Shown here: positions 8,706 to 16,508 of the stretch, piece by piece | Layout of the letters: every line of letters begins with the position of its first letter | Position numbering within the stretch: the stretch's first letter is position 1 | Assembly: GCF_001887355.1 (NCBI RefSeq) | Contig: NZ_MPIN01000002.1 | Coordinates: forward strand, 310,001-374,000 | Origin: Cystobacter ferrugineus | Lineage (GTDB): Bacteria > Myxococcota > Myxococcia > Myxococcales > Myxococcaceae | Length of the DNA stretch: 64,000 nucleotides | Direction: 5' to 3' | Translations under genes and position numbers: made by a program | Notes under the pieces: generated by a model | Told to the model about the DNA's origin: nothing | What the model saw: the letters and a program-made list of their open reading frames with translations, nothing else | Databases searched by the model: none

Positions 8706-8736
8706 GTGAAACACCCTGAAACACGTCTTGAAACAA
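8706..8736 (+). promoter_or_regulatory. Triplet of palindromic activator sites upstream of sqr
   Basis: Three related 9-base sites lie at 8706-8714 (GTGAAACAC), 8716-8724 (CTGAAACAC) and 8728-8736 (TTGAAACAA), so their starts are 10 and 12 bases apart. They sit 43-73 bases upstream of the sigma54 -24 element, the usual place for an enhancer-binding protein. The same triplet with the same spacing precedes the second unit of the island at 11498-11528. Binding by the activator at 10138-11496 is inferred. Confidence 0.75.
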
Positions 8737-8777
8737 CCGTGGGGGCGGGGCGCTCGTGTGCTCTCGGAGGCGAGGGG

Positions 8778-8793
8778 TGGCACGCGTGCTGCA
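8778..8793 (+). promoter_or_regulatory. Sigma54 promoter of the sqr-activator unit
   Basis: TGGCACGCGTGCTGCA matches the sigma54 consensus, with GG at 8779-8780 and GC at 8791-8792 separated by exactly 10 bases. Transcription would start near 8804, about 44 bases before the sqr ATG. Confidence 0.82.
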
Positions 8794-8847
8794 CTGGGTC
8801 AGGGTCCTTCCATCCACCCAGGATGGTTGCCACAGCGGGAGAGTGAC

Positions 8848-10125
<1,278 letters not shown>

Positions 10126-10137
10126 CGCCCCTCGCCC

Positions 10138-11496
<1,359 letters not shown>

Positions 11497-11497
11497 C

Positions 11498-11528
11498 GCG
11501 TTTCCCGGTGTTTCACGCGGTGTTTCAA
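11498..11528 (+). promoter_or_regulatory. Triplet of palindromic activator sites upstream of the persulfide dioxygenase
   Basis: Three 9-base sites: 11498-11506 (GCGTTTCCC, degenerate), 11508-11516 (GTGTTTCAC) and 11520-11528 (GTGTTTCAA). The starts are 10 and 12 bases apart, exactly as in the triplet before sqr. The central AAA is TTT here, that is, the same site read on the other strand. They begin right after the activator stop codon. Confidence 0.72.
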
Positions 11529-11566
11529 CCGGGGACGTCCGGGCGTTCCCCCGGGAGGGGCGGCCC

Positions 11567-11582
11567 TGGCACGGTGATCGCA
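11567..11582 (+). promoter_or_regulatory. Sigma54 promoter of the pdo-rhodanese-exporter unit
   Basis: TGGCACGGTGATCGCA has GG (11568-11569) and GC (11580-11581) 10 bases apart, as required for sigma54. Transcription would start near 11593, only about 3 bases before the dioxygenase ATG, so the message may be nearly leaderless. Confidence 0.72.
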
Positions 11583-11595
11583 ATGAGCGCGGGAC

Positions 11596-12282
11596 ATGAT
11601 CTTCCGCCAGCTCTTCGATGCCGAGTCCTCGACGTACACCTACCTCCTGGGCGATCCGTCCTCGGGGCAGGCCGCCCTCATCGATCCGGTGCTCGAGCAG
11701 GTGGAGCGCGATCTCACGCTGGTGCGTGAACTCGGCTTGCGCCTCACCCATGTGCTGGAGACGCACGTGCACGCGGACCACATCACCTCCGCGGGGCGGC
11801 TGCGCGAGCGCACCGGGTGCACGGTGGTGGCCAGCGAGCGGGGGGCGTCGTGCGTCGATCTCCATGTGCGGCATGGGGACGAGGTGCGCGTCGGGGCCCT
11901 GGTGGTGCGCGTGCTGGCCACTCCGGGACATACCGATGACGGCGTGAGCTACTGCGTGGGGGAGCGGGTGTTCACGGGAGACACGCTGCTCATCCGCGGC
12001 ACCGGGCGGACGGACTTCCAGAATGGGGACGCGGGCCAGCTCCACGACTCCGTCACCCGGGTGCTCTTCGCCCTGCCGGACGACACGCTCGTCTACCCCG
12101 GGCACGACTACCAGGGCCGGACGGTGACGACCATTGGCGAGGAGAAGCGGCACAACCCGCGCCTGGCGGGACGCGGCCGTGAGGAGTTCATCCACCTCAT
12201 GGGCAACCTCCACCTGCCCATGCCCCGGAAGCTGGACGTGGCCGTGCCCGCCAACCGCTCCTGTGGGCGCCTGGACTCGTGA
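11596..12282 (+). CDS. Persulfide dioxygenase (ETHE1-like, metallo-beta-lactamase fold)
   Basis: 228-residue non-heme iron enzyme that oxidises glutathione persulfide to sulfite. The metallo-beta-lactamase motif THVHADH gives H57, H59, D61 and H62; H112 (PGHTDD), D129 (TGDT) and H170 (PGHDY) complete the set. By comparison with ETHE1, H57, H112 and D129 should bind the iron. The N-terminus MIFRQLFDAESSTYTYLL is typical of the family, which fixes the start although no ribosome-binding site fits between the promoter and the ATG. It works downstream of SQR and upstream of the rhodanese and exporter genes in the same unit. Confidence 0.92.
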   Translation: MIFRQLFDAESSTYTYLLGDPSSGQAALIDPVLEQVERDLTLVRELGLRLTHVLETHVHADHITSAGRLRERTGCTVVASERGASCVDLHVRHGDEVRVGALVVRVLATPGHTDDGVSYCVGERVFTGDTLLIRGTGRTDFQNGDAGQLHDSVTRVLFALPDDTLVYPGHDYQGRTVTTIGEEKRHNPRLAGRGREEFIHLMGNLHLPMPRKLDVAVPANRSCGRLDS

Positions 12283-12295
12283 GGAACGCGCGACC

Positions 12296-12634
12296 ATGTC
12301 CTCTCCTCTCTTCCTGGATCTCCTTCCCGAGCAGCTCGACACCCTGGGGCCCGAGGTGCGGCGCATCGACGTGCGCGAGCCCGACGAGTTCGAGGGCCCC
12401 CTGGGCCACCTGCCCCGGGCCGAGCTCGTTCCCCTGGGCACCCTCGAGGCCGCGTGCGCCACCTGGTCCCGCGAGGCGCCGCTGCTGCTCATCTGCCGCT
12501 CGGGCCGGCGGTCCGTGACGGCCGCCGAGCTCCTGGCGCGGCACGGCTTTGGCCGCCTCTACAACCTCAAGGGAGGCATGCTGGCGGTGCGCGAGGCCGA
12601 CCCGGCGCGCGGCCCGGGAGCCCCATCCACGTGA
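12296..12634 (+). CDS. Single-domain rhodanese-like sulfurtransferase
   Basis: 112 residues, one rhodanese domain. The active-site loop is CRSGRR with the catalytic C67, and the earlier RIDVREPDEFEGPLGHLP block is typical of the family. Rhodaneses move sulfane sulfur between persulfides, glutathione, sulfite or cyanide. Here, between a persulfide dioxygenase and a TauE/SafE exporter, it probably forms thiosulfate from persulfide and sulfite or feeds glutathione persulfide to the dioxygenase (inference). GAGGA at 12281-12285 is the ribosome-binding site. The stop overlaps the next start as GTGA. Confidence 0.9.
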   Translation: MSSPLFLDLLPEQLDTLGPEVRRIDVREPDEFEGPLGHLPRAELVPLGTLEAACATWSREAPLLLICRSGRRSVTAAELLARHGFGRLYNLKGGMLAVREADPARGPGAPST

Positions 12635-13497
12635 GCCCGGGCCTTCACGACGTGCTCGCGCTGCTCGTGCCTCCCGCCATGCCCCTGGTGGGCTTCGTGC
12701 TCGCCGCGCTCATCGGCGTGTCCCTGGGGCTGCTCGGGGGAGGAGGCTCCATCCTCACGGTGCCGATCCTCGTCTACGTGCTGGGCTTCGAGCCCAAGGA
12801 GTCCATCGCCATGGGGCTGGCGATCGTGGGCACCACGAGCCTCTTCGGTGCCTTCGGACACTGGCGCGCGGGCAACCTCCAGTTGCGCGCCGCGCTCGTC
12901 TTCGGAGCGATGGCGATGGGGGGCACCTTCGTCGGCGCGCGCCTGTCGGTCTTCCTCCCGGGGACGGTGCAGCTCGTGCTCTTCGCCACGGTGATGTTGG
13001 TGGCGGCGGTCTTCATGGAGCGCAACGCCCGGCGGGAGCTCGCCACCCCGGCCACCGGGCCCGAGCCGCGCGTGGCCTCCTTTCCCCTGCTCGCCGCGTC
13101 CGCGCTCGGCGTGGGCGCGCTCACGGGGCTGGTCGGAGTCGGCGGGGGATTCCTCATCGTGCCGGTGCTCGTCCTGCGCGCCGGTCTGCCCATGAAGCAG
13201 GCGGTGGGCACGAGCCTGCTCGTCATCGCCTTCAACTCCTTCGTCGGGTTCGCGGGCTATCTCGGCCATGTGAACGTCGCGTGGGGGGCACTCACGCTCT
13301 TCACGGGCCTGGCCATCGCGGGTACCGTCGGAGGCACCTGGCTCTCGCGCTTCATCTCCCAGGCCACCCTCAAGCGGGCCTTCGCGGGGCTGCTCGTGGT
13401 GATGGGCGTCCTCATCCTCTACGAGAACCGGCGGACGTTCCCCGCGCTGGGACGGGCCGCCGCCAGCGAGTCTCCACGCCCGGTGCGTCCGGGCTGA
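12631..13497 (+). CDS. TauE/SafE family membrane transporter (probable sulfite/sulfur-compound exporter)
   Basis: 288-residue inner-membrane protein with about eight hydrophobic segments in two halves. Each half has a glycine-rich loop of the family type (LGLLGGGGSILTVP and LVGVGGGFLIVPVL). TauE/SafE members export sulfite, sulfoacetate and related anions; the operon suggests removal of sulfite or thiosulfate made by the dioxygenase and rhodanese. The GTG start overlaps the rhodanese stop by the GTGA arrangement, which points to translational coupling. Confidence 0.9.
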   Translation: MSPGLHDVLALLVPPAMPLVGFVLAALIGVSLGLLGGGGSILTVPILVYVLGFEPKESIAMGLAIVGTTSLFGAFGHWRAGNLQLRAALVFGAMAMGGTFVGARLSVFLPGTVQLVLFATVMLVAAVFMERNARRELATPATGPEPRVASFPLLAASALGVGALTGLVGVGGGFLIVPVLVLRAGLPMKQAVGTSLLVIAFNSFVGFAGYLGHVNVAWGALTLFTGLAIAGTVGGTWLSRFISQATLKRAFAGLLVVMGVLILYENRRTFPALGRAAASESPRPVRPG

Positions 13498-13688: not shown

Positions 13689-14240
13689 ATGATGCGGGAG
13701 CAGATGGAGATGAACCTCGACTGGGTGACCTCCGAACTCGTGCTGGGAGGCCGCTTCCCGATGGAAGCCGCGGCCCATCTCTCCCAGCGGCTCGGCATCC
13801 GTTACGTCGTCGACGTCCGGGTGGAGTGCTGTGATGACGAGCGTGTGCTGCGCGAGCACGGCATCACCCTGCTGCACCTGCCCACGGTGGATATGTGCGC
13901 CATCAGCCAGCCGATGATTCGCGATGGGGTGGCCTGGGTCCGCGAGCGTCTGGATCAGGGGGAGAAGGTCTTCATCCACTGCGAGCACGGCATCGGCCGC
14001 AGCGCATTGCTGGCGCTGTGCGTGCTCGTGTCGCGAGGGCTCAGCCCGCTGGAGTCCCTCGCGCTGGCCAAGCGGCGGCGGCCCAAGGTGTCTCCGAGCC
14101 CGGAGCAGCTCGAGGCCTTCATGGCCTTCGCGGAGGAGTGGAGACGGGCCCATGGGGCCTCCTGGACCGTGCCCGTCTTCGACGAGCTGGCGGCCATCGC
14201 CTACAGCCACCTGCGACCCTCCTCGCCGCCACCCGCGTAG
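13689..14240 (+). CDS. Dual-specificity protein phosphatase
   Basis: 183 residues. The cysteine-phosphatase signature CX5R is present in HCEHGIGRS, with nucleophile C98 and phosphate-binding R104. DVRVECCDDE and the segment around TVDMCAISQPM lie where the general-acid region of the fold is expected. It could act on phosphotyrosine/serine or on a phosphorylated small molecule or lipid. AGGAG at 13676-13680 is the ribosome-binding site. It lies only 19 bases upstream of a kinase/phosphoribosyltransferase-like fusion gene in the same direction, so the two are probably co-transcribed. Confidence 0.88.
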   Translation: MMREQMEMNLDWVTSELVLGGRFPMEAAAHLSQRLGIRYVVDVRVECCDDERVLREHGITLLHLPTVDMCAISQPMIRDGVAWVRERLDQGEKVFIHCEHGIGRSALLALCVLVSRGLSPLESLALAKRRRPKVSPSPEQLEAFMAFAEEWRRAHGASWTVPVFDELAAIAYSHLRPSSPPPA

Positions 14241-14259
14241 GGCCCCGGGAGTCACGCGC

Positions 14260-16026
14260 ATGCTCGTCTATGGAGATCGGCCCCGTTCGCGGGTGCCTGG
14301 AGAGGTTCTCGCCGACCTGCGCCGTCAGATGGCCGAGGCCGAGGCCCTGCCCGCCGGCATTCTCTGGCACACGGCGCTGGCCCGGCTGTTGATCGACGCG
14401 GGCATGCTCGCCCAGGGGCTCCTGGATGCCGGGTATGAGCGGATGGGCCACGACAAGCAGGGCCCCGAGCAGGAGCGGGCCCTGGCCCTGCCGTTGGCGG
14501 TGGCCCGGGCGCTCTGGGAGTCGCACCGGAGTGGCTACCGCGTCCGGAGTGCGCTGCCCTGGGACGCGCTCGAGGCGCTCGAGCGTGCCTCGCTGCCGGA
14601 CGCGGTCTCGCTCAAGACGCCCGAAGGGTACGCCTATTATGCCCTCTATCCCGAGGCGTACATGGAAGCGGCCCGCGACCTTCCCAATGGACGGGCGGCG
14701 CGCGTCATCGGCATTCGCAGCATCGGCACCAGCCTGGCCTGCGCGGTGGCCGCGGGGGCGGGCGCGGTTCACGCCCCGATGACCGTGCGGCCCGGCGGAC
14801 ATCCCTTCCAACGCGAGCTGCGCCTGGGCCCCGGCGTCGAGGCGGCCCTGCGGTGCTCGGAACGCGGTACTCCCTTCGCCATCGTGGACGAGGGGCCCGG
14901 CCTCTCCGGGAGTTCCTTCGGCGCGGTGGGGGACACCCTCGAGCGCGCGGGCGTGCTGGTGGAGCACCTGCACTTCTTTCCCAGCCACCGGGGCGAGCCC
15001 GGGCCCATGGCGAGCGAAGCGCACCGCGTGCGCTGGCGCCGCGCGCACAAGCACACGGTCGATTTCGAGCACCTGTTCCTGGCTCCCAGCGAGCCGCGCC
15101 ACGCGTTGGCCTCGTGGGTGGAGGACCTGTGCGGCGCTCCTTTGGCCCCGCTGGAGGACGTGGGGGGCGGTGGCTGGCGGCGCGAGCACTTCTCCCAGGA
15201 GGAGGACTGGCCCGCCGCCCATGTCCAACAGGAGCGGCGCAAGTACCTCCTGCGGACCGGGCGGGGCCTCTTCCTGCTCAAGTTCGCGGGGTTGGGCAGC
15301 CGCGGAGCGCATGCCCTCGAGCGTTCACGGACGCTCGCCGAGGCGGGATGGGGGCCTGGGGTGCTGGGGCTGCGGCACGGCTTCCTCGTCCATCGCTGGG
15401 AGGCGGAGTCCACGCCACTCGATCCCACGGCCGTCGATCGCCGTGAGCTGCTCGATCGGACCGGTGCCTATCTGGCCTTCCGGGTCCGTTACTTCGCCCG
15501 CTCGGGTGGGGGCCACGGTGCGAGCCCTGAGCAGTTGTTCGAAATGGGGCGTCACAACACGCGCGAAGCGCTCGGCGAGGAGTGGGCCCGGTCCTGGTCT
15601 CGCTGGGAGGAGCAGCTCGTGCGCCTGTCGGCGGAGTTGAACGTGGTGGAGACCGATGGCCGCATGCATCCCTGGGAGTGGCTCGTGAGGCCGGACGGAG
15701 CCCTCCTGAAGACGGACGCGGTGGATCATCACGACGCGCACGACCTCATCGGCTGCCAGGACGTGGCGTGGGACATCGTGGGCGCCAGTGTCGAGCTGGG
15801 CCTCGAGCAGGGCGAGCTGGCCGAGCAGGTGTCACGGCGGGGGCCTCGCGCGGTGAGTGGCGTGCTGCTGCGCTTCTATCGTCCCTGCTACCTGGCCTTC
15901 CAACTGGGCCATCATCAGCTCGCCTTCCATTCCCTGGCCTCACAGGTTCCCTCGGAGGCCGAGCGCCTTCGCGCCGCCGCTCAGCGCTATGCGCGGGCCC
16001 TGGAGCGGGAGCTGGCCGCCGGGTGA
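14260..16026 (+). CDS. Phosphoribosyltransferase-like / aminoglycoside-kinase-like fusion protein
   Basis: 588 residues with no family I can name with certainty. Residues about 150-260 look like a type I phosphoribosyltransferase: ARVIGIRSIGTSLACAVA, then the PRPP-loop-like AIVDEGPGLSGSSF (about 207-220). The C-terminal half resembles the aminoglycoside/choline kinase fold: a candidate ATP-binding lysine K341 in FLLKFAG, MHPWEWLVRPDG, and a metal/catalytic-like stretch LLKTDAVDHHDAHDLIG (K484 onward) followed by DVAWDIVGA. A canonical HxDxxxxN loop is not seen, so the kinase assignment is by overall likeness. The fusion and its position after a phosphatase suggest making and removing a phosphate on one substrate. 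The ATG at 14260 begins 19 bases after the phosphatase stop. Confidence 0.75.
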   Translation: MLVYGDRPRSRVPGEVLADLRRQMAEAEALPAGILWHTALARLLIDAGMLAQGLLDAGYERMGHDKQGPEQERALALPLAVARALWESHRSGYRVRSALPWDALEALERASLPDAVSLKTPEGYAYYALYPEAYMEAARDLPNGRAARVIGIRSIGTSLACAVAAGAGAVHAPMTVRPGGHPFQRELRLGPGVEAALRCSERGTPFAIVDEGPGLSGSSFGAVGDTLERAGVLVEHLHFFPSHRGEPGPMASEAHRVRWRRAHKHTVDFEHLFLAPSEPRHALASWVEDLCGAPLAPLEDVGGGGWRREHFSQEEDWPAAHVQQERRKYLLRTGRGLFLLKFAGLGSRGAHALERSRTLAEAGWGPGVLGLRHGFLVHRWEAESTPLDPTAVDRRELLDRTGAYLAFRVRYFARSGGGHGASPEQLFEMGRHNTREALGEEWARSWSRWEEQLVRLSAELNVVETDGRMHPWEWLVRPDGALLKTDAVDHHDAHDLIGCQDVAWDIVGASVELGLEQGELAEQVSRRGPRAVSGVLLRFYRPCYLAFQLGHHQLAFHSLASQVPSEAERLRAAAQRYARALERELAAG

Positions 16027-16103
16027 GCGGGGGAGGAGGGGAGGGCGCCGGAAGTGCGCTTCCCTCGGGCGTGCGGACCTACTTTTCCTGGAGGAGGCCG
16101 CGC

Positions 16104-16508
16104 ATGGAACGCACGACGGAGATTCCCCCTCAGGGGTGGTTCAACTACTTCGCGGGCTTGAGCAGGCGGGCGATGAGCCACCCCGTCCGGGTGGAAGTGG
16201 AGAGCGTCTTGATGGGAGCCCAGGAGCTGGTTCATGCGCTGCCCTTGCTGGGCATCGACGTGGAACCCAAGGGCTCGGAGCTGGGTGCCATCGAGCTCAC
16301 CCTGGGAGATGAACACCAGGACTTCCTGCACCGCATCGCCCAGCCCGTGCAGGTCTATCTCAAGATCGATGACCACGGAGACCTCGATTGCCTGTCCATC
16401 GAGGACCGGAGTGGAACCAGGACCCTGGTCTTCTTCGAGGAGGGAGGCGTGCCCGCCTGGGCCCATCCGAGCATCCAGGAAGCGGAGCCGCCCGCGTTGG
16501 GCCTGTGA
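16104..16508 (+). CDS. DUF5335 family protein
   Basis: 134 residues. The pattern TEIPPQGWFNYFAGLSRR...HPVRVEVESVLMGAQE...LPLLGIDVEPKGS...IELTL matches DUF5335, a small family of unknown function. It has no signal peptide or membrane segment and is acidic. GAGGAGG at 16091-16097 is an excellent ribosome-binding site. It follows the fusion gene by 77 bases in the same direction and could belong to the same transcript. Confidence 0.8.
   Translation: MERTTEIPPQGWFNYFAGLSRRAMSHPVRVEVESVLMGAQELVHALPLLGIDVEPKGSELGAIELTLGDEHQDFLHRIAQPVQVYLKIDDHGDLDCLSIEDRSGTRTLVFFEEGGVPAWAHPSIQEAEPPALGL

Follow-up and report, generated by a model that had tools for sequence, protein, structure and literature searches.

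In the known phosphoribosyl pyrophosphate (PRPP)-dependent addition of ribofuranose, a transferase resembling the phosphoribosyltransferases (PRTases) acts together with a phosphatase by which the 5-phosphate is taken off (PMC11127046, PMC10299916). Among the closest described systems to the one reported here is gPRT/PRP (CriT/CrpP of Bcs3), in which the phosphatase accompanying the PRTase-like transferase is of the HAD type. We report the analysis of a 64,000-nucleotide stretch of DNA (contig C2, positions 310001-374000, hereafter the window) from the 12-Mb genome of the myxobacterium Cystobacter ferrugineus (label G000), which encodes a CX5R dual-specificity-type phosphatase (DSP) beside a 588-residue fusion protein. 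As in gPRT/PRP, a PRTase-like protein is accompanied by a phosphatase, and the PRTase half of the fusion is by prediction of the same fold class; here, however, the phosphatase is a separate CX5R dual-specificity-type protein, a kinase domain is fused to the PRTase domain, and the genomic setting is an inositol/methyltransferase cluster. The fusion regularly belongs to this cluster, which is associated with the methyltransferase family TIGR04290 and found in Alphaproteobacteria and myxobacteria; in the window genome, by contrast, DSP and fusion lie apart from it. The features of the locus are as follows.

13689-14240, + strand: DSP, a CX5R dual-specificity-type phosphatase of 183 amino acids (Pfam DSPc, 1.8e-12, above cut-off)
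14260-16026, + strand: fusion protein of 588 amino acids, with a helical N-terminus, a predicted PRTase domain and a predicted choline-kinase/aminoglycoside-phosphotransferase (APH)-type domain
14260-14619, + strand: N-terminal segment of the fusion, residues 1-120, mostly helical (secondary structure of AlphaFold models)
14620-15063, + strand: predicted type I PRTase-fold domain, residues 121-268 (structure matches of the predicted model)
14887-14916, + strand: PRPP-loop-like motif DEGPGLSGSS, residues 210-219 (conservation over 70 rows)
15070-16023, + strand: predicted choline-kinase/APH-fold domain, residues 271-588 (structure matches of the predicted model)
16104-16508, + strand: DUF5335 protein with its ATG at 16104, a neighbour judged to lie outside the system (Pfam DUF5335, 7e-17)

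The original prediction for this DNA had described a CX5R phosphatase, a 588-residue protein carrying DEGPGLSGSS and a DUF5335 protein, all on one strand with short gaps, and to this extent it is borne out: the three open reading frames lie on the + strand, 19 nt (DSP to fusion) and 77 nt (fusion to DUF5335) apart, the DSPc match is joined by the CX5R motif HCEHGIGRSA, and the loop motif of the fusion is nearly invariant over 70 relatives. A simple scan for a promoter or terminator gave nothing. We consider the stretch to consist of real genes because the fusion has relatives elsewhere: 18 of 116 related genomes carry one of nearly full length (21 carry any match), and 277 of 374 pattern-matched stretches of GTDB genome contigs encode one. 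Within the Myxococcota it occurs in 27 of 195 genomes, counting a divergent relative in G189, or in 31 when any match, relics included, is taken; the rows for G002, G055, G093 and G014 were excluded from the counts as relic, partial or weak. The best 80 distinct loci among the 277 stretches, referred to below as the wider loci, are by their titles mostly alphaproteobacterial, with Myxococcota, Variovorax, Acidobacteria and Chloroflexi also represented, and the hosts of the fusion include Sinorhizobium meliloti, Azospirillum, Methylobacterium, Microvirga and Myxococcus. It is present in 90 of 72,556 plasmid records, 66 of them from Sinorhizobium, and has no match in 50,697 phage records that would point to a phage origin. 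In the annotated records examined it is labelled 'hypothetical protein'.

The cluster can be seen on three plasmids, those of Roseomonas mucosa (p1-HV1, 14 genes), S. meliloti ml47 (pSymB, 14 genes) and A. brasilense (p2, 11 genes), where the fusion, which is included in these counts, lies inside the cluster or at its edge. Its annotated neighbours, not all of which occur on each plasmid, are inositol-3-phosphate synthase, a histidine phosphatase (HISP), the TIGR04290 methyltransferase, a beta-xylosidase-like protein, Gfo/Idh and zinc dehydrogenases, epimerases, four glycosyltransferases and UDP-glucuronate decarboxylase. Profile searches bear out this content, the xylosidase-like protein giving a sub-threshold glycosyl-hydrolase match only. 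Of the 80 wider loci, 43 have one or more of six specific cluster genes in the examined stretch, and in M. xanthus AM003 (L164) the DSP-fusion pair is embedded in the cluster, the consecutive genes being methyltransferase, xylosidase-like protein, fusion, DSP, ADH and Gfo. The cluster probably builds an inositol- and sugar-containing compound; no description of either cluster or product was found in the open-licence literature. The A. brasilense p2 cluster also contains a B12-binding radical SAM protein of family TIGR04295 (L173, 7743-9050).

The xylosidase-like protein was used as a marker for the cluster, with Myxococcota marker rows below 170 bits dropped. Among the Myxococcota, both fusion and marker are found in 23 genomes, the fusion only in 4, the marker only in 4 and neither in 164 (Fisher 6e-22; kinship is ignored in this and all the Fisher values below), so that the marker accompanies 23 of 27 fusion-bearing genomes compared with 4 of 168 that are free of the fusion. 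The fusion-bearing genomes lacking it are G043, G150, G160 and the divergent G189, a distant myxobacterium whose fusion relative lies at C5 10561-12321 (L165, 244 bits). The alphaproteobacterial order to which Microvirga belongs shows the same association over 297 genomes, three marker rows at or below 100 bits (G294, G359, G522) having been dropped: 14 genomes have both, none the fusion only, 10 the marker only and 273 neither (Fisher 6e-18), that is, 14 of 14 fusion-bearing genomes against 10 of 283 fusion-free ones.

The association extends to loci at which the cluster is not seen beside the fusion. Of 37 loci chosen for the lack of a specific cluster gene in the examined stretch, one (L107) was left out; in the remaining 36 genomes the marker is present in 35, with a fragment match only in G222, and absent in one, G230 (3.4 Mb). 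In 14 of the 35, all Microvirga, it lies 10-12 kb from the fusion on the same contig, and in 21 it is on another contig, although in draft genomes this is no proof that the two are far apart. The window genome itself carries the cluster on a different contig from the fusion (C1, 976.9-993.9 kb), with methyltransferase, marker, both dehydrogenases, an ABC transporter, epimerases and glycosyltransferases as well as a myo-inositol-1-phosphate synthase of another type; neither the fusion nor the histidine phosphatase was found in the 35 kb searched there. Its congener G002 is a natural test, in which the distant cluster has decayed along with the fusion and DSP. In the stretch of G002 homologous to the cluster three genes are fragmented and no marker, methyltransferase, dehydrogenase or transporter gene was found, while about 2.4 Mb away there remain a fusion relic matching 58 residues and a frameshifted DSP. 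Linkage, co-occurrence and this joint decay together make it very probable that the fusion belongs to the inositol/sugar pathway of the cluster.

No family in Pfam, NCBIfam, PADLOC or PHROGs covers the fusion, whose protein family has no name, and against the sequences of the PDB a single-sequence query returned one chance-level row (E 0.82) and an 18-row profile none. Predicted structure and conservation were both based on an alignment of 70 rows picked as near-full-length matches (L098, cut by a contig end, was left out). The full-length AlphaFold model has a pLDDT of 94.8 and a pTM of 0.94; since kinases filled its list of structure matches, residues 1-268 were folded (pLDDT 94.6) and searched alone. 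Of the 50 VIA-align matches listed for this segment, 47 are named phosphoribosyltransferase, PyrR or PRPP synthetase, with Z between 8.0 and 9.8 where 7-8 is typical for models without a clear match; the best of those listed is 3mbi (Z 9.8, rmsd 2.7, 123 aligned) and the other three are TT0130, HP1257 and Fur1p. The matches fall mainly over residues 121-268. Foldseek, weaker on its own, placed XGPRT/APRT in its top rows (probability 0.99, E 1.3e-2), with none at E <=0.001. Given the closeness of these Z values to the baseline, support for a type I PRTase fold in residues 121-268 is moderate, and is made firm by the uniformity of the matches. Published gPRT structures are absent among the VIA-align matches listed, which excludes nothing; any likeness to gPRT/PRP is at the level of predicted fold class.

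The predicted domain shares with the type I PRTases (XGPRT, APRT, UPRT, PyrR) and PRPP synthetase its fold and an acidic PRPP loop. It differs from them in the loop itself, DEGPGLSGSS, in an extra N-terminal helical segment, within which Q52 and D56 are invariant in the alignment, and in having no PRTase Pfam match: the 70 members together match 12 Pfam families at E <=1, none of them a PRTase sequence family. Within the loop D210, E211, G212, P213, G214, G217, S218 and S219 are found in 70 of 70 rows, S216 in 69 and L215 in 68, and R177, P178, P182 and R185 are likewise invariant or almost so. The fusion very likely binds PRPP, which would be its substrate, and transferase activity appears somewhat more probable than its absence.

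Residues 271-588 are matched to the LicA choline kinase 4r77_A (Z 19.0, rmsd 4.3, 264 aligned, 16% identity over the structural alignment), and Foldseek gives E 2.5e-9 for the kinase-fold match. K328, D466, K484, D486, D489 and H490 are conserved in 70 of 70 rows, while position 341, which had been singled out as K341, is lysine in 60 and arginine in 10. By its spacing D466 is the putative catalytic aspartate and D486 the putative second metal aspartate. This invariant pair and the fold are shared with the LicA/APH superfamily, from which the fusion differs in being joined to a PRTase domain and in lacking the asparagine of the HxDxxxxN motif, which stands five residues past the catalytic aspartate in APH and choline kinases. 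With D466 and D486 kept, the asparagine not kept and K341 replaced by arginine in 10 of 70 rows, the model describes a kinase-type fold whose active site is unusual; that it acts as a kinase seems a little better than an even chance. The predicted models thus agree with the earlier assignment of the two halves as transferase and kinase.

The fusion is often accompanied by the phosphatase gene. In 15 of the 18 myxobacterial genomes with a near-full-length fusion the DSP gene is directly adjacent to it on the upstream side (22-74 nt); in G030 and G038 it is at another site than the fusion, and in G010 it was not found. It occurs in 14 of the 80 wider loci, in 13 of which 3-38 nt separate the match ends, and the pairs beyond the myxobacteria comprise five alphaproteobacterial loci and one Variovorax locus, with match ends 6-15 nt apart except at L066 (618 nt). 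The expectation that the two genes would occur together beyond close relatives is therefore upheld. G025 has, besides a DSP and fusion pair at 526961-529306, a second DSP copy that adjoins the xylosidase-like gene of the cluster (C1 2088294-2090466, L156), where no fusion was found; this copy may be left over from a time when the genes were linked.

DSP and HISP are never found together in the 80 wider loci, of which 24 have HISP and 14 DSP (Fisher 0.004), nor in the 43 loci with a cluster gene, where the counts are 24 and 9 (Fisher 0.00016). Mapped on the tree, the two labels require at least three changes each, with 44 of 94 rows carrying no label. HISP is always accompanied by INO1 (24 of 24 loci; INO1 is present in 26), and this constancy allows that the two phosphatases do different jobs; they may do so, or may replace each other.

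We propose that the DSP and the fusion form a detached part of the conserved cluster. The PRTase half would transfer 5-phosphoribosyl from PRPP to a cyclitol or sugar acceptor, at a hydroxyl group; the kinase half would phosphorylate an intermediate of that pathway, a small polyol or sugar; and the DSP would take off a phosphate, most likely the 5-phosphate that the transfer leaves on the ribose, as the HAD phosphatase does in the known PRPP-dependent ribofuranosyl transfers. The combination of a PRTase half with a phosphatase and a sugar/inositol cluster suggests, by analogy, the logic of the known ribofuranose additions with a kinase added; PRPP as substrate, the acceptor, the order of steps and the phosphate removed by the DSP are inferred. 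We give the proposal as a whole a probability of about 0.4. That the DSP acts on the product of the fusion is a tentative assignment, somewhat short of even odds. Ribostamycin/butirosin (BtrL/BtrP) is a possible parallel, on which a literature search gave nothing useful.

Several observations weigh against the proposal. G043, G150 and G160 keep both DSP and fusion and have neither the marker nor the cluster glycosyltransferase that was tested. The support for the PRTase fold is moderate (Foldseek E 1.3e-2; Z 8.0-9.8 against a baseline of 7-8). Position 471, five residues past D466, has as its commonest residues alanine (39), proline (14) and serine (4 of 70) where asparagine is usual, so the kinase half may be altered or inactive. 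The coupling of HISP to INO1 in 24 of 24 loci, all free of the DSP, fits the removal by HISP of inositol phosphate and not of ribose phosphate. Finally, the DSP has an open frame in G016, G017 and G019 in the absence of both fusion and marker, and in G055 it stands open beside a fusion relic, again with no marker, so that it may have another role.

One alternative leaves the fusion in the cluster pathway and alters its task: the PRTase half, binding PRPP as PyrR does, would sense it and gate the kinase half, which would act on inositol or a sugar, with the phosphatase reversing this step or clearing inositol phosphate. The structure matches do include PyrR and PRPP synthetase, proteins whose main role is not base transfer, and kinase and PRTase share one chain throughout the 70 aligned rows, although these were picked as near full length. 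The near-invariance of the PRPP loop together with R177, P178, P182 and R185 would be more usual for catalysis, however, and no regulator is among the recurrent neighbours listed, though no search was aimed at regulators. On this balance we regard a PRPP-sensing regulator or controlled kinase as unlikely.

A second alternative confines cluster membership to the fusion and takes the DSP as a separate protein or sugar phosphatase that is simply its neighbour. Its presence in just 14 of the 80 wider loci speaks for this, as do the open frames kept without an intact fusion or marker in the four genomes named above. Set against these are the adjacency of the genes in 15 of 18 myxobacterial genomes, the pairs in five alphaproteobacterial loci and one in Variovorax, the place of the DSP within the cluster of M. 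xanthus AM003 and its decay together with the fusion in G002, and we think such independence rather improbable.

It has to be considered, too, that the acceptor is a product of the kinase half, which would phosphorylate a lipid or cyclitol alcohol, and that the PRTase half adds phosphoribosyl to that phosphate, as in the decaprenyl-phosphate route, to give a lipid- or cyclitol-linked ribosyl donor for the cluster glycosyltransferases. A polyprenyl-phosphate ribose route that involves a phosphatase is known, and its enzymes are membrane proteins with predicted transmembrane helices (PMC11127046), of a different fold from the fusion. Even with an ABC transporter in the cluster of the window genome, this explanation appears quite improbable. 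The idea put forward originally, a system modifying a nucleotide, nucleoside or RNA, draws on the PRTase fold and on a kinase beside a phosphatase, and is now highly improbable given cluster partners that are inositol, sugar and glycosyltransferase enzymes, a DUF5335 gene that is a genus-level neighbour and no match in the defence library.

Our reading of the substrate class accordingly moves from nucleotides and RNA to inositol and sugars, the conserved context being inositol, sugar and glycosyltransferase biosynthesis, and a biosynthetic pathway that adds a phosphate at one step and takes it off at a later one is a better fit to that context than a 'reversible modification'. The preferred proposal, of a DSP and fusion serving the cluster pathway, can be carried further: a one-chain PRPP-dependent O-ribosyltransferase and small-polyol kinase, with a PTP-type enzyme turned sugar phosphatase, would make a ribosylated inositol glycoside not yet described and widespread in soil- and plant-associated bacteria. 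Taken in full this is doubtful; were it true, it would constitute a third architecture of PRPP-dependent sugar transfer, beside the HAD-linked and polyprenyl-phosphate routes. The fusion can be regarded as a common two-domain protein with a clear pathway home and a chemistry that we infer. Both halves now have a predicted fold and the fusion is tied to a defined cluster in tractable organisms, which makes the cluster product and a possible new use of PRPP directly testable.

An anti-phage defence system was considered and rejected, none of the three proteins having a PADLOC match at E <=1. DUF5335, which had been counted as the third member of the set, is likewise rejected as a component: tblastn at E <=0.01 finds it in none of the 80 wider loci and, among 20 myxobacterial stretches, in two that both come from the window's genus, the other 18 lacking it. 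In G002 it adjoins the fusion relic, and in G003 some 4.7 kb separate it from the fusion upstream. The window genome has three DUF5335 genes (C4:946630, C2:326116 and C19:62854), and no mention of the family was found in the open-licence literature. A second, short match, to the last 29 residues of the fusion, closely precedes DUF5335 in G003, some 4.6 kb beyond the full gene (C20 181431-181517, L026); a duplication or insertion has perhaps split there the arrangement seen in the window.

Two further observations concern neighbouring genes. In Microvirga loci, for example L056, L061 and L068, the fusion is found downstream of a cluster-type zinc dehydrogenase and near genes named by eye as SpoVR, YeaH-like and PrkA, a set often tied to stress, and a stress role for the cluster product is possible. 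Upstream of the DSP, window positions 8728-13497 encode a sulfide-quinone-reductase-like protein, a sigma-54-type regulator, an MBL-fold hydrolase, a rhodanese and a TauE/SafE-like permease (named by eye from the translations), which likely form a sulfide-oxidation gene set unrelated to the DSP and the fusion.

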